52,394 bases of DNA from Prolixibacteraceae bacterium (GTDB lineage Bacteria > Bacteroidota > Bacteroidia > Bacteroidales > Prolixibacteraceae): assembly GCA_017998095.1 (NCBI GenBank), contig JAGODU010000009.1, forward strand, positions 1-52,394, read 5' to 3'. The notes beneath the pieces were generated by a model. That model was given only the letters and a program-made list of their open reading frames with translations, was not told the origin of the DNA and did not search any database. Every line of letters starts with the position of its first letter. Positions within the stretch are counted from its first letter, which is position 1. The position numbers and the translations under genes are program-made. Positions 3,863 to 15,443 of the stretch are shown piece by piece.

Positions 3863-5212
3863 ATGAAATACTTAATTTTAACATTTATCTTCATCTTCTT
3901 GCTATTGTCTAATTTATTTTCTCAAGGCTTATTTGAAAGTACAGTACAGGAAAACTCAGGCAACAAACCAGGAGGCCTCAGCTTCAACGGATATGTTCGC
4001 GGATCATCTTTTCTGGCGTCAAAAAAATATGATTATCCAGCAGTTTTTGGAGAGACTTCTCTACAAACCAAAATTAGCACACAAAATCTTATCTTGTTCA
4101 GCGACCTTCGTTTCAGAAGCGGTTATATTTTCAATGAACAAATTAACGAGTTTGAAATTAAAGAAGCTTATGCAGGAATTAAATCAGATTTCTTTGATGT
4201 TTTAATTGGAAATCAAATAATCACCTGGGGAAGAACCGACGGGTTCAATCCAACCAACAACATTTCCCCAAATAATTATTTCTTCCTATCTGCTAATCCC
4301 GATGATCAGAAATTATCAAACTTCATGCTTAGCACTGAATTCAGAATTTCTCCGGCAATTAGTATTGATATAATCGGGATTCCTGTTTTCAAGCCTTCGA
4401 TTTATAAATATGATCTTATTAACAATAATGACAATGCATCATTCACCAATCCTGATTTACCTGATAAAGTTTTTAAAAATGGTTCCTTAGCTGCTAAACT
4501 TGATTTTGAATTCCCGTCTATTGGTTTTTCTTTATCATTTTTCAATGGATACGACCCCTTCTATGGCTTCGACATCAAGAATGTTGAATATTCAATCGGA
4601 TTGCCCGAAATTACTTATATCCCTTCATTTTATAGAAAAACCAGTCTCGGACTTGATTTTACTCTCCCTCTTGGCACATGGATACTAAGAAGCGAAGCTG
4701 CTTACAATTTACCGGAAAACAATGAAAATAAAATGTATATACCTAATAAAGATATATCGTATGTTGTCGGTATTGAACATGACTTCAAAGGCTTTCTAAC
4801 TATCATCCAATATATTGGCAAATACACTTTTGATTATAATCGTCTTGACAAACCTCAACTCACTAATCCTTTGGATCCTCTTGCCTTACTTCAATATGCT
4901 TCTGAAACAATTAATTATGAATCAGCATTGTATAATCGTAAGATTTTCCATCAGCAAAAACAAATGAATCATGCCCTGTCGATAATTATTTCAAAATCCT
5001 TTTTTTACGAAACACTAAATCTTGATCTATCGGGATACTACGACATAAGCTCTAAGGAATATATGATACGACCATCTCTAAAGTGGAATATTAATAATTC
5101 ACTTTCAGCTACTGCAGGATATTCATATATGAATGGTCCCTCACAATCATTATTTTCCTATGCTACTTCTGTTCTCAGCGGAGGATTTATTGAAATTAAA
5201 GCAAGCTTCTAA
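3863..5212 (+). CDS. Outer-membrane beta-barrel protein of an MMPL export cluster
   Basis: 449 residues beginning with a clear signal peptide (hydrophobic residues 3-18, cleavage near LFSQG). The mature part is rich in alternating aromatic/polar strands and ends in IEIKASF, with a terminal Phe as in outer-membrane barrels. An internal segment NQIITWGRTDGFNPTNNISP (residues about 114-133) resembles the WG-x-x-D...NP signature of DUF1302-type barrels that accompany MMPL transporters in Proteobacteria; this similarity is from pattern memory, not a search. The stop overlaps the ATG of the transporter by one base, so the two are translationally coupled. Likely role: outer-membrane partner or receiver in the export pathway encoded next to it. 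Confidence 0.7.
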   Translation: MKYLILTFIFIFLLLSNLFSQGLFESTVQENSGNKPGGLSFNGYVRGSSFLASKKYDYPAVFGETSLQTKISTQNLILFSDLRFRSGYIFNEQINEFEIKEAYAGIKSDFFDVLIGNQIITWGRTDGFNPTNNISPNNYFFLSANPDDQKLSNFMLSTEFRISPAISIDIIGIPVFKPSIYKYDLINNNDNASFTNPDLPDKVFKNGSLAAKLDFEFPSIGFSLSFFNGYDPFYGFDIKNVEYSIGLPEITYIPSFYRKTSLGLDFTLPLGTWILRSEAAYNLPENNENKMYIPNKDISYVVGIEHDFKGFLTIIQYIGKYTFDYNRLDKPQLTNPLDPLALLQYASETINYESALYNRKIFHQQKQMNHALSIIISKSFFYETLNLDLSGYYDISSKEYMIRPSLKWNINNSLSATAGYSYMNGPSQSLFSYATSVLSGGFIEIKASF

Positions 5213-12145: not shown

Positions 12146-12541
12146 ATGAAACGCTTATTAATAATTTTACTATTCTTCACCTCGCTGAATGTTTTCAGTC
12201 AAAGTTACATTACTTTCAGCGGGGTGATTAAAGATTCCCAAACAGGCGAATACGTTAACGGAGTGGATATCTTTGTAAAGGAAAAAACAACCGGCACTCT
12301 TAGTGATGCCACAGGCTCTTTCTTCATGTTCCTGACTGAAGGTGTATATAACATCAAAATTTCAGGAGAAGGTTATAAATCTGAAATAATGACAGTTAAT
12401 CTCACTGAGGACAAATATTTTGAAATAAAACTTAATCCTACTGAAGCTTCCAGAAAGAAAACTACAGGCAGACTAAATAAGAAAAATAATAATCAGGGAA
12501 GTGAAATTGTTCAACATTCTCCAATCGACAACCCTTCATAA
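12146..12541 (+). CDS. Small secreted protein with carboxypeptidase-regulatory-like beta-sandwich
   Basis: 131 residues: signal peptide (hydrophobic residues 4-16, cleavage near VFSQS), then one CarboxypepD_reg-like domain (about residues 23-108) with the pattern FSGVIKDSQTGEYVNGVDIFVK...GTLSDATGSFFMFL...YNIKISGEGY. In Bacteroidetes this domain usually sits at the N-terminus of TonB-dependent receptors (SusC type) or surface proteins; here it is alone, followed only by a basic, Ser/Asn-rich tail of about 22 residues. There is no TonB box or barrel. A terminator follows directly, so it is a single gene. Function unknown; a periplasmic or outer-membrane adaptor is possible. Confidence 0.75.
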   Translation: MKRLLIILLFFTSLNVFSQSYITFSGVIKDSQTGEYVNGVDIFVKEKTTGTLSDATGSFFMFLTEGVYNIKISGEGYKSEIMTVNLTEDKYFEIKLNPTEASRKKTTGRLNKKNNNQGSEIVQHSPIDNPS

Positions 12542-12579: not shown

Positions 12580-12607
12580 AAGGCTACTCAATTAGGGTAG
12601 CCTTTTT
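12580..12607 (+). terminator. Rho-independent terminator
   Basis: Stem AAGGCTAC (12580-12587) with GTAGCCTT (12597-12604), nine-base loop, followed by T-rich sequence. It closes the 12146-12541 gene. Confidence 0.75.
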
Positions 12608-12656
12608 GTTTTCTCAAACTTAAAAACTCTCTTTACTTAACTCTAAAAGCAACATC

Positions 12657-12820
12657 AAATATATAAATGAGTCGTACCAGAGTCGTACCAGAGTCTTACC
12701 AAATACTAACCAAACACCATAAGGAAATTTTCTTATGGTGTTTGGTTAGTATTTGGTAAGACTTTGGTCTCTATTTGTTCAGACTTTGACAGTATTTATT
12801 TGTTGTAAAAAAATATATAA
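12657..12820. mobile_element. Possible miniature element: repeat palindrome bounded by 10-bp direct repeats
   Basis: AAATATATAA occurs exactly at 12657-12666 and again at 12811-12820, enclosing the palindromic 11-bp repeat array. This is the layout of a small non-autonomous insertion with a target-site duplication. Against it: the 10-mer is pure A/T in an AT-rich region, so chance is plausible, and the inner ends do not form clear terminal inverted repeats. No transposase is present in the window. Confidence 0.25.
12670..12796. repeat. Palindromic array of 11-bp repeats with a 37-bp perfect stem
   Basis: Left half: consecutive 11-base units start at 12670, 12681, 12692 and 12703 (AGTCGTACCAG twice, AGTCTTACCAA, ATACTAACCAA). 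Right half: units in the opposite orientation start at 12742, 12753, 12764, 12775 and 12786 (TTGGTTAGTAT, TTGGTAAGACT, TTGGTCTCTAT, TTGTTCAGACT, TTGACAGTATT). The halves pair from 12687-12723 with 12732-12768 without a mismatch (36 Watson-Crick pairs and one G-U). It lies between two genes on the same strand, after the first gene's terminator. It could be a protein-binding array, an RNase III-type hairpin, or a decayed mobile repeat. Confidence 0.9.
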
Positions 12821-12931: not shown

Positions 12932-13576
12932 ATGAAACACATTATTGTAACAGCAATCATCATTTGCTCAGCCATTTTAAAAGTATTTTCATCAGAGTAC
13001 GAAGAAAAAATGGGAGCAACTATCCAAAAAATGTATCAGTCAAGAAGTGAAACTGAGTTAACTGAAATAGCAGGTCAGTTTGAAAAGATAGCTCCGAACT
13101 CTGAAAGTGAGTGGCTCCCCGGATATTATGCCGCGTATTCTTATTTGAGTATTGTGATCAACAATTATAACATTAGCAACGACAAGAAAATTGAAATACT
13201 GGACAAGTCTCAGAAGCATATTGAAAATATAATGAAGATAAAACCGGATGAATCTGAGATTTATGCCTTGCAGGCTTTTGTATATTTAATGAGTATTATA
13301 AAACCGGAAGAGGGTTATAAATATTCAACCCTGGCAAACGAAAATCTCACTAAGGCAGAAAAATTGAATCCCAACAATCCAAGAATTTATTATCTGACAG
13401 CTTTAAGTTATTTATATACCCCTGAAGATTTTGGAGGAGGAGCAGAAGTAGCAAAACCTTTGTTTGAAAAGGCCGAACAACTTTTTAAAGATGAATCAGG
13501 GAAAGATAAACTTCTTCCATCCTGGGGAAAATATCATAATGGAATGATGTTGCAGCAGTGTGAAGGAAAAAAATAA
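12932..13576 (+). CDS. Secreted TPR-like protein upstream of a LytS/LytTR pair
   Basis: 214 residues with a signal peptide (hydrophobic residues 3-19, cleavage near VFSSE). The rest is helical with TPR-like spacing: ESEWLPGYYAAYSYLSI, then PDESEIYALQAFVYLMSI, then NPNNPRIYYLTALSYLY, about three repeats. The conserved segment YTPEDFGGGAEVAKPLFEKA near the end suggests a defined periplasmic protein family of Bacteroidetes. The sensor kinase starts 30 bases after its stop, so the three genes probably form one unit and this protein may help sense or respond to the same signal (inference). Exact function unknown. The leader region 12821-12931 shows no clear promoter consensus. Confidence 0.75.
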   Translation: MKHIIVTAIIICSAILKVFSSEYEEKMGATIQKMYQSRSETELTEIAGQFEKIAPNSESEWLPGYYAAYSYLSIVINNYNISNDKKIEILDKSQKHIENIMKIKPDESEIYALQAFVYLMSIIKPEEGYKYSTLANENLTKAEKLNPNNPRIYYLTALSYLYTPEDFGGGAEVAKPLFEKAEQLFKDESGKDKLLPSWGKYHNGMMLQQCEGKK

Positions 13577-13605: not shown

Positions 13606-14676
13606 ATGGTTGTAATTGCCAAAAACAAGGTCAAGCAAACCTCTCGTAAACAAATAATTAGCGGCTTCGCAATAGCGGCTTTTATTTCTATTGCATTTGG
13701 CACTTCCATTTTGATTATTCAAAGTAAAAGCTTTAATCTTCCAATAAAAGAATACCTGTTAAATGCAGGTTATTCTATCTTTTTAGGTTTATTATTGTTT
13801 GCTAATGGTCCGTTATTCCGGCTTGTGGAAAGAGGATGGCTTTCATGGGTTAAACGACCTTTCAGAAGTTTAGTTATTGCATTAAGCTTTCACCTTATCT
13901 ATTCAACAATTGCCATTTTGTTTGTCAACTGGTTGTATTTTATAGTAATCAGTAATCAAAGTTTTAAATTATTTTTTTCCTGGGGAGGTCACTTTATACT
14001 CTTAAGTGAATATGTTATCTTACTGATAATAACAGCAATAATCTATGCTAAATCTTTCTTCAAAGAATGGAGGATAGAAGTAACTGAAGGTGAAAAACTT
14101 AAGCAGGAAGCAATTTCTCTCCAATACCAGGTAATGCAAAACCAGGTAAATCCTCACTTTCTATTTAACAGTCTTAATACATTAGGCTCACTTATAGATA
14201 TTGATACAAAAAAGGCAAAAGAGTTTACCCGGGAGCTTTCATTATTTTACAGAGAGCTGCTCTTCTTCAAGGATAAAGACCTCATTTCATTAAAGGAAGA
14301 GATTAGCTTCCTGGAAAGATATATTTATCTTCAGAAAATAAGATTTGGGGATAATTTTAACGTTGAAATTGATCTTGGCAATAATATTACCGGAGAAGTT
14401 ATTCCAATGTCTGTACAAATGATGGTTGAAAATGCAATAAAGCACAATATCATTTCCAATGAAAGGCCGTTGTCCATTAACATTGGCTTATTGAGTGAAA
14501 ATGAATTATTTGTTGAAAATAATTTTCAACCCAGAGAAAATGTTCAGGGAAGCAACAGAATAGGTTTGAATAATCTTAAAGAAAGATATATGTTTTTGAC
14601 CGGCAAAGAATTAACCATAAACAATGACAGTAAAAAATTCAGAGTTACTATTCCTTTGATCATATTACAGCCATGA
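13606..14676 (+). CDS. LytS/YehU-type sensor histidine kinase
   Basis: 356 residues. Four hydrophobic helices (about residues 17-40, 48-66, 85-110, 125-150) form an N-terminal membrane domain, followed by a coiled linker and the His_kinase domain (PF06580 type) with QNQVNPHFLFNSLNTL holding the phosphorylated His, then an ATP-binding domain with MMVENAIKHNI and GLNNLKERY. Such kinases pair with LytTR regulators; the partner gene overlaps by four bases (ATGA at 14673-14676). The ligand is unknown. The membrane part has no large periplasmic loop, so sensing is likely within the membrane. Confidence 0.93.
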   Translation: MVVIAKNKVKQTSRKQIISGFAIAAFISIAFGTSILIIQSKSFNLPIKEYLLNAGYSIFLGLLLFANGPLFRLVERGWLSWVKRPFRSLVIALSFHLIYSTIAILFVNWLYFIVISNQSFKLFFSWGGHFILLSEYVILLIITAIIYAKSFFKEWRIEVTEGEKLKQEAISLQYQVMQNQVNPHFLFNSLNTLGSLIDIDTKKAKEFTRELSLFYRELLFFKDKDLISLKEEISFLERYIYLQKIRFGDNFNVEIDLGNNITGEVIPMSVQMMVENAIKHNIISNERPLSINIGLLSENELFVENNFQPRENVQGSNRIGLNNLKERYMFLTGKELTINNDSKKFRVTIPLIILQP

Positions 14677-15443
14677 AAATACTGATTGTAGAAGATGAAC
14701 CATTGGCAGCTGCCCAGCTAAAGAAGTTGCTGAAAGAAATAAGGCCCGATTCTGAAGTAGTTGCAATATGCGACACAGTTGAATCTACTGTAAATTGGCT
14801 AAAAGGAAACACTTCTCCTGATTTGGCTTTTTTGGATATACATCTCGGTGATGGATTGAGTTTTGAGATATTTAAAAAAGTAAACTTCGATGTTCCTGTA
14901 ATCTTTACTACTGCTTACGATCATTATGCCATACAGGCATTTAAGGTAAACAGTATTGATTATCTGATGAAGCCTGTTGACAAGGATGAAATTATTGCTG
15001 CCCTGAATAAATATGAACAGCAAAAACAAAAGATTTCAGGGGGTTTAAACGATGGACTTATAAAGAGTCTCATCTCATCAATTGGAATCAATAAAGACTA
15101 TAAAAAGAGGTTTATTGTAAAGATTGGCACACACATTAAGGCAGTAGAAACTGACAATGTAAATTATTTCTATAGCTTTCAGAAAGGAACCTTCCTGAAA
15201 TCGGGCGATGGTAAGAATTATCTTCTGGACCAAACGCTTGAGACAATAGAACAGCTGGTCGATCCGGGTCAATTCTTCAGGATTAACAGGAAATATCTTG
15301 TGTCTCTTAATTCGATAACAGATGTAATTGCATACAGTAATTCAAGGCTAAAATTAAAAGTAGTTAACCAGGAAGAAGATGACTTTCTGGTTGCACGTGA
15401 AAAAGTAAAGCAATTCAAAGAATGGTTTGAAGGGTTACTTTAA
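14673..15443 (+). CDS. LytTR-family response regulator
   Basis: 256 residues: receiver domain (1-120) with the acidic pocket VEDEP, phosphoacceptor D55 in AFLDIHL, Thr in FTTAY and Lys in MKPVDK; then a linker and a LytTR DNA-binding domain (about 150-250) with RFIVKIGTHIKAVE and FFRINRKYLVSLNSI. Cognate partner of the overlapping LytS-type kinase. LytTR regulators bind pairs of about 9-10-base direct repeats roughly 11 bases apart on one helix face, which makes the 11-bp repeat array just upstream of this operon an interesting possible target (inference). Its end overlaps the end of the convergent S9 peptidase gene by nine bases. Confidence 0.95.
   Translation: MKILIVEDEPLAAAQLKKLLKEIRPDSEVVAICDTVESTVNWLKGNTSPDLAFLDIHLGDGLSFEIFKKVNFDVPVIFTTAYDHYAIQAFKVNSIDYLMKPVDKDEIIAALNKYEQQKQKISGGLNDGLIKSLISSIGINKDYKKRFIVKIGTHIKAVETDNVNYFYSFQKGTFLKSGDGKNYLLDQTLETIEQLVDPGQFFRINRKYLVSLNSITDVIAYSNSRLKLKVVNQEEDDFLVAREKVKQFKEWFEGLL

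Follow-up and report, generated by a model that had tools for sequence, protein, structure and literature searches.

The window, that is, the whole 52,394-nucleotide stretch of Prolixibacteraceae DNA that was analysed, carries a hairpin element in the gap between a gene for a CarboxypepD_reg-like domain protein (12146-12541, forward strand) and a gene for a TPR-like protein (12932-13576, forward strand; Pfam match below the curated cut-off). The latter is the first of a TPR-HK-RR group that continues on the forward strand with a histidine kinase (PF06580, 13606-14676) and a LytTR response regulator (14673-15443). A separate terminator-like hairpin follows the upstream gene (12580-12604, forward strand) and lies outside the element. 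No ORF of at least 80 aa covers the element which, between the gene end at 12541 and the next gene start at 12932, is short, non-coding and intergenic. Its ends are approximate (12655-12806, unstranded); the outer flanks pair weakly in the fold of 12655-12810, and outside the 37-pair stem complementarity falls off. With 34% GC, the window is AT-rich, and this is the only 11-bp inverted array in its 52 kb. Its CTP synthase has its nearest matches in metagenome proteins; relatives with names, among the 120 matches listed, include Bacteroidales bacterium, Prolixibacteraceae bacterium, Roseimarinus sediminis and Sunxiuqinia. Elsewhere in the window, a Bacteroidete tryptophan peptide leader (RF01692, 47394-47522, forward strand) scores exactly at the gathering score, and the gene run directly downstream of it resembles trp biosynthesis, judging the names by eye.

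Both arms of the element are built from 11-bp tandem units. The left array (12669-12701, forward strand; TRF period 11, 3.0 copies) comprises three near-identical GAGTCKTACCA units, GAGTCGTACCA, GAGTCGTACCA and GAGTCTTACCA, and thereby repeats GTCGTACC every 11 bp; the form GTCGTACC-N3 recurs in another genome, G399. A fourth left unit, AATACTAACCA (12702-12712, forward strand), belongs to the inner zone and keeps the 11-bp ACCA register, in which ACCA stands at 12676, 12687, 12698 and 12709 in exact steps, with an out-of-phase fifth ACCA at 12716. On the right (12741-12795, forward strand), the units TTTGGTTAGTA, TTTGGTAAGAC, TTTGGTCTCTA, TTTGTTCAGAC and TTTGACAGTAT place TTTG at 12741, 12752, 12763, 12774 and 12785, again in exact 11-bp steps, with an out-of-phase extra at 12799 and an additional 22-bp period (TTTGGTTAGTATTTGGTAAGAC/TTTGGTCTCTATTTGTTCAGAC, 77%). 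Both arrays were recovered independently by TRF. At lag 11, the self-match of the hairpin arms was 0.71 on the left and 0.48 on the right, compared with 0.17-0.30 and 0.23-0.42, respectively, at the other lags from 5 to 21.

The arms meet at an 8-nt loop (12724-12731). Outward from 12723/12732, 32 Watson-Crick pairs (12692-12723 with 12732-12763, forward strand) are followed by one G.T pair (G12691/T12764) and four further pairs, after which the pairing decays; the stem 12687-12723/12732-12768 therefore holds 36 Watson-Crick pairs and one G.T. The sequence-only reading had described an ordered 11-bp array with inverted arms whose phase runs outward past the stem on both sides, and both features are borne out. 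Its 37-bp mismatch-free stem stands as 37 paired positions, whereas the unbroken Watson-Crick run is 32 bp. The runner-up perfect stem in the 52 kb measures 13 bp (loops of up to 15 nt). The predicted RNA minimum free energy of 12655-12810 is -75.6 kcal/mol, as against -27.6 +/- 3.8 for 200 dinucleotide shuffles (z -12.6; none equal). A 10-bp direct repeat, AAATATATAA, flanks the inverted arms (12657-12666 and 12811-12820, unstranded). It could be a target duplication or AT-rich chance, but 20 of 1000 simulated flanks matched it, which makes it weak as a target duplication.

The window hairpin is not a lone accident, as some other genomes of its order have inverted 11-bp arrays scattered over many sites. 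The order of G001, to which Prolixibacteraceae locus L015 belongs, was searched for three TTTGGT spaced 11 bp apart, with one mismatch allowed, and 27 of 393 genomes matched. One match was present in 21 of the 27, and such single matches are background, the reversed control giving similar single matches elsewhere; G345 had 10 matches, and G139 and G340 five each. BLAST with one element in G345 returned 38 matches, which fall at about 37 places and of which the last few are short. For arrays of TGGTTT-N5, overlapping matches numbered 48 in G340 and 50 in G467, spread over 28 and 32 places, respectively (places counted by hand), and the same pattern gave nine matches in G399. In G471, the TTTGGT pattern matched 133 times at up to two mismatches and 10 times at zero mismatches, and no tandem-armed hairpin was found in 79 kb of its contigs picked for arrays. 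Inversion is not universal, as the arrays of G471 and G139 (the latter read by eye) seem one-directional. The 11-bp TTTGGT arrays of G139 (L145, L147 and L146, L148, L149) stand beside longer repeats of two types, without a clear inverted arm. BLAST of the window element itself against 140 genomes of G001's family gave one 31-base match, to the right flank.

Copies within a genome share a recognizable design; because several pattern loci of one array overlap, sequence duplicates were removed before copies were counted in the arm and end comparisons. The 31 aligned copies of G345 have a common core of about 100 bp with five 11-bp TTTG steps and a short inverted arm. Those of G467 are two facing arrays of CCATGGTTNNT around a nearly fixed apex, and those of G399, about 100-260 bp long where not cut by Ns, have two zones of 11-bp units per arm, mirrored at the apex. 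Some copies are perfect or nearly perfect palindromes (G345 L365:8606-8692 and G399 L360). Since copies elsewhere have the same inverted design, formation of an array that was then folded back as a purely local event, as first proposed for the window, is unlikely. By eye, G399 copies share ends of two types, and subsets of G345 copies share ends as well (e.g., CCGACTTTTTGATAAATT with its complement at the opposite end); as judged from these alignments, the shared ends point to copying. Other repeats were noticed as well: L153 and L154 of G349 hold a MITE-looking repeated element with TGTGGTTTTAATTTGGTGTAGTTTTGGTG between apparent terminal inverted repeats (by eye), and L363-L367 of G345 (100 kb) are unusually rich in heptamer and octamer tandem arrays, with 32 TRF rows of period 7 and 15 of period 8. 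A cobalamin riboswitch (RF00174; L172, 873-1062) lies near one G340 copy.

A further scan looked for imperfect hairpins without assuming a period and retained a hairpin if the best self-match lag of one arm reached z of at least 4. The stretches scanned were of different origin: known matches guided the choice of the G471 contigs and of one G340 stretch out of five, the G467 contigs C6 and C17 were scanned whole, and the G399 and G345 stretches lay away from the matches then listed. Tandem-armed hairpins numbered nine in G467 (392 kb), five in G399 and three in G345 (100 kb each), one each in G340 and G469 (100 kb each), one in the window and one in 743 kb of 80 named loci; there were none in G431, G456 and G436 (100 kb each). 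Across all stretches scanned, 19 of the 21 had period 11, among them 9/9 in G467 (two unit families), 5/5 in G399, 2/3 in G345 and the one in the window. Both arms of the window hairpin are tandem with an 11-bp period; its best lag in the scan was 11 on the left and 22 on the right, and it was counted by its left arm. The two exceptions had periods of 8 (G345) and 7/14 (named locus L027). The units behind the common period are diverse: CCATGGTTNNT and ATATGAAGTTG in G467; GTCGTACC/ATACGTAACAA, TTGTGTGCTTA, AAGGTACACAC and one more family in G399; and TGTCCGCTTGT and ACAATATATGT in G345, besides its TTTGG family. Because the initial choice of carrier genomes relied on patterns with a built-in 11-bp spacing (TTTGGT or TGGTTT core), only families without these cores support the period independently. 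By our reading, 10 hairpins are unconditioned on the period in this sense (three in G467, five in G399 and two in G345). Repeat length, rather than sequence, seems to be what is kept.

One unit is common to the window and a G399 family. The left-arm pattern GTCGTACCN3GTCGTACC was searched in the 140 genomes of G001's family after the unit had been seen in a G399 hairpin found without it. With one mismatch, it gave 55 overlapping matches in G399 (28 listed, at 16 places); four further genomes had a single match each, and the other 135 had none. The reversed control gave none in G399 and matched once or twice in some other genomes, so the single matches in those four carry no meaning. The sequence-only reading had proposed a search for further copies, and the supposition that none exist anywhere fails on these matches. 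In a search of about 1.4 Mb with an nhmmer profile of 19 G399 arms, window positions 12671-12701 ranked first (E 0.023, 14.7 bits), followed by a runner-up at 8.1 bits (E 2.6); inner units are also alike by eye (ATACTAACCAA in the window and ATACGTAACAA in G399). This likeness is short and was tested after being seen, and as a sequence comparison it is suggestive of common descent, not proof.

The pairing of arms was compared within and between copies, and as covariation proof of an RNA structure the results are mixed. In G467, the arms match their own partner less well than those of other elements (26.2 vs 29.7, 22 copies; 0/5000 permutations as low). At the variable dinucleotide of its units, facing units agree in 7 of 82 cases, compared with 18% in shuffles (28 copies, orientation normalised; 6/2000 as low), and in 7 of 54 cases, compared with 13.4, for units 2-4 alone (23/2000 as low); shifts of one or two units show nothing unusual. 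Without the normalisation, the facing deficit was accompanied by a one-step excess (21/61; 7/500 shuffles as high), which vanished after orientation was normalised, while the deficit stayed. In the CCATGGTTNNT-family copies at L259-L327, the innermost variable pair is nearly fixed as TG on the left (27/28) and CC on the right (23/28), and therefore the arms mismatch next to the apex. Outer ends gave different results by genome: own pairing was slightly lower than cross pairing in G340 (9.4 vs 10.6, 17 copies) and higher in G345 (11.8 vs 9.5, 31 copies; 0/5000 permutations as high), probably because the G345 copies fall into end subfamilies. Two further sets were set aside: a G467 outer set that was not de-duplicated (own 7.6, cross 8.5) and a G399 set with only three usable copies (own 70.7, cross 63.3; 831/5000 permutations as good). 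The G467 pattern argues against selection for a perfect stem, be it RNA or cruciform, and for reading of the double strand; there is possibly selection against perfect palindromes in this genome.

Eleven copies of two families are among the TRF arrays of period 11, 22 or 33 in the 392 kb of G467; 10 of them occupy gaps between predicted ORFs, and the eleventh is within one. Divergent genes flank 3 of the 10, as they do 18 of the 63 other gaps of at least 250 bp (sorted by hand), so that placement is like that of other large gaps. Thirty G345 copies lie between divergent (13), convergent (5) or tandem (12) genes; two of these loci are at contig ends, where the context is unsure, and 4/30 overlap a small predicted ORF. 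The neighbouring genes have no common theme: among 98 flanking proteins from G467, G345 and G399, many truncated at the ends of their loci, each family was matched by three at most. Y1 transposase matches occur in 15 of 16 genomes, carriers and non-carriers alike; the carrier G467 has none, and G340 has one (30.8 bits).

A phage or plasmid origin was rejected on the basis of blastn, in which the window element with its flanks gave no match in phages and three short AT-rich right-flank matches in plasmids (E 0.2-0.5), and a G399 element gave none in either. Among viral contigs, TTTGGTN5TTTGGTAAGAC matched 14 (seven kinds by eye, 5/14 sharing one stretch), including an array of four exact units in L010/L011; in phage-like L010 (2963-3006), these are four exact tandem TTTGGTAAGAC, the same 11-mer as one of the window units, with no inverted arm seen. 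Three GTCGTACC units were present in one prophage-like contig, L438, and three CCATGGTT units in none. The L438 array (4949-4978) has four 11-bp units, GTAATACCGCA and then three GTCGTACC-N3, and lies upstream of a short MerR/HTH_17-like gene (below the Pfam cut-off), with a phage integrase gene nearby. We did not count these viral-contig arrays as relatives, since chance alone could supply tandem arrays of a given unit in so large a collection.

The position of the element ahead of a regulatory gene group raised the proposal that it is the operator of the neighbouring LytTR regulator. The element precedes the gene group that contains the LytTR gene, whose start is 1.9 kb downstream, and the best LytTR-like site in the element, ACCAAATAC, scores 3.9 of 13.0. 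Related gene groups were drawn from named genomes (the best 80 of 401 relatives of the TPR gene, identities 33-48%), and a histidine-kinase match was present in 57 of the 80 loci by hand count. The 450 bp upstream of the TPR gene were informative in 78 loci, none of which showed an array or a long stem; if the match begins within the gene, up to about 110 bp of this stretch is coding. The other two loci were uninformative (L048 with 81 bp upstream only, and L070, where the stretch read is not upstream). Among these 78 loci, the longest perfect stem was 15 bp, and the best 33-position lag score was 22 (lag 12, L087), as against 28 in the window. Therefore, the element is not a conserved part of the TPR-HK-RR gene group, for which protein relatives at 86% identity exist; no TPR relatives were found in viral contigs. 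G429, the closest relative by kinase among the genomes searched for the kinase, had no tandem-armed hairpin in 400 kb.

The spacing and the motif argue against LytTR in the same way. According to the available part of one report, LytTR sites are 9-bp repeats, mostly with 12 bp between them, giving a period near 21 bp (PMC6193735), compared with 11 here; the window units are unlike such direct repeats and have no significant LytTR motif match. Against a matrix of 36 sites, mostly from Firmicutes (the one Bacteroides entry in the part of the source used is incomplete and was left out), 1 of 17 unit consensuses beat its shuffles at p<0.05, namely TGTCCGCTTGT of G345 (p 0.01). At most one of the 98 proteins flanking other copies matches LytTR. 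We consider a LytTR operator highly improbable and rejected it as the main reading on loci, neighbours, spacing and motif scores. Of the functional 11-bp period that the sequence-only reading had tied to this regulator, the period stands, as it is common to unrelated families in which the sequence is not, and seems to matter; the LytTR link is not supported, given 0/78 upstream arrays and, on the spacing described in the accessible LytTR text, a mismatch of period.

Three further readings bear on whether the hairpin acts as RNA, as a terminator or not at all. The helical repeat is near 11 bp in bacterial DNA and in dsRNA alike, so the number 11 alone does not decide between them. If the element acted as RNA, it would be a long transcribed hairpin whose 11-bp units, each one A-form turn, present the same face to an RNA-binding protein or RNase; the dsRNA pitch of 11 fits this, as do the extreme predicted folding energies (-75.6 kcal/mol in the window and -173.4 for G399 L360), the outer ends that pair within G345 copies and, by eye, within two G399 copies (L267 and L273), and the (nearly) perfect palindromes in G345 and G399, which a hairpin function also predicts. 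The arms of G467, however, avoid matching each other, the outer ends of G340 pair slightly less with their own partners than across copies, and the G345 signal can arise from linked end types. Nor does any Rfam family cover the window element at gathering score; in 20 other loci, at E up to 0.5, Rfam returned only the cobalamin riboswitch and, well short of their cut-offs, two miRNA models, one of which overlies a G340 element, and a known structured RNA was thus set aside. We regard the RNA reading as unlikely. A transcription terminator or attenuator is very improbable: the scan does rate the core terminator-like, as a loose rule of five T in eight is passed, but the tail after the stem, TATTTGGTAA, has no real U run, and G345 copies lie between divergent genes in 13 of 30 cases and between convergent genes in five. 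With that tail, and with the terminator-like hairpin at 12580-12604 already following the upstream gene, this candidate was rejected.

The array might also be a neutral by-product, made and amplified without function by slippage and fold-back template switching at replication. The left end of the window copy looks freshly slipped (GAGTCKTACCA three times), a conversion tract would fit the sharp edge of its perfect core, the 78 loci have no copy upstream of the TPR gene and the carrier genomes are patchy. Slippage, however, has no reason to pick 11 in unrelated families, as seen in 19 of 21 tandem-armed hairpins; the copies have ends in common; and the G467 arms depart from random pairing in a patterned way. 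A purely neutral origin therefore appears rather unlikely to us.

In the top-ranked matches of the open-licence literature, no description of such elements was found, and comparison with known systems yields partial likenesses. Plasmid parC and iteron arrays are short repeats one helical turn apart that are bound cooperatively; they differ in being tied to par or rep genes, neither of which is seen beside the element. Porphyromonas gingivalis, which we take to belong to the same order as the window organism, is host to the BrickBuilt MITE. Like the element, BrickBuilt is intergenic and dispersed (19 copies in ATCC 33277) and has tandem repeats inside an element with small inverted ends (PMC4596501). 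It differs in its one-directional 23-nt repeats, its leader and tail and its 5' end, GAGACCTTTGCA, and the part of that report available describes no paired inverted 11-bp arrays (PMC4596501). With a unit of 11 bp and no GAGACCTTTGCA end visible by eye, the window element was not assigned to BrickBuilt as there described. REP elements, which are linked with RAYT transposases, are likewise many-copy palindromic repeats, but they measure 20-40 bp and have GTAG or CGTC ends, with no tandem arms mentioned in the text consulted (PMC3733652); they were rejected on the Y1 transposase counts (0 in carrier G467, 1 in G340). TAACTGA heptamer repeats are abundant intergenic direct repeats, some in Bacteroidetes, and differ, in the excerpt available, by their 7-bp unit of one sequence, in direct orientation and mostly next to start codons in the main genome studied (PMC4679880). 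The closest parallels in the form of binding are CarH, which binds 11-bp direct repeats on one DNA face (PMC9304148), and BldC, which forms head-to-tail filaments on 9-bp repeats (PMC5859096). As far as these sources were accessible, their sites resemble the element in tandem direct repeats of variable number; they lie at target promoters, whereas the elements are dispersed inverted pairs to which no such protein is tied.

Taken together, the window hairpin is quite possibly a copy of a MITE-like, dispersed, non-coding element with inverted 11-bp arrays at a short apex, the arms being putative phased protein-binding arrays, and we adopt this reading tentatively. Copies would spread like a MITE, as suggested by the ends that they share. 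The arrays may be read on double-stranded DNA by a putative protein that oligomerises head to tail, with one protomer per helical turn on one DNA face, and the two arms would bring two protein filaments face to face at the apex. This dependence on phase would keep the period at 11 even as the units drift in sequence, duplicate and become homogenised, with slippage adding and removing units; the perfect core of the window copy may have arisen by template switching between its arms. The window hairpin is best regarded as a small and partly decayed representative of a class ruled by the 11-bp step in two facing arms. A wider version of this reading, which we put forward as doubtful, is that the class is defined by period and symmetry, such that any 11-bp unit serves if two arrays face, and that the several unit families of a carrier genome, perhaps each with its own protein, form a chromosome-wide address or anchoring system.

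Sequence is normally the feature by which dispersed bacterial repeats are recognised; here, the common property is the 11-bp, one-turn step together with inverted symmetry. This leads to the prediction that whatever maintains these elements reads helical phase. With 11 copies of two families in 392 kb of G467, they are common enough to shape intergenic DNA, and they could readily be used to test what sets the 11-bp step: a protein, an RNA or a replication mechanism.
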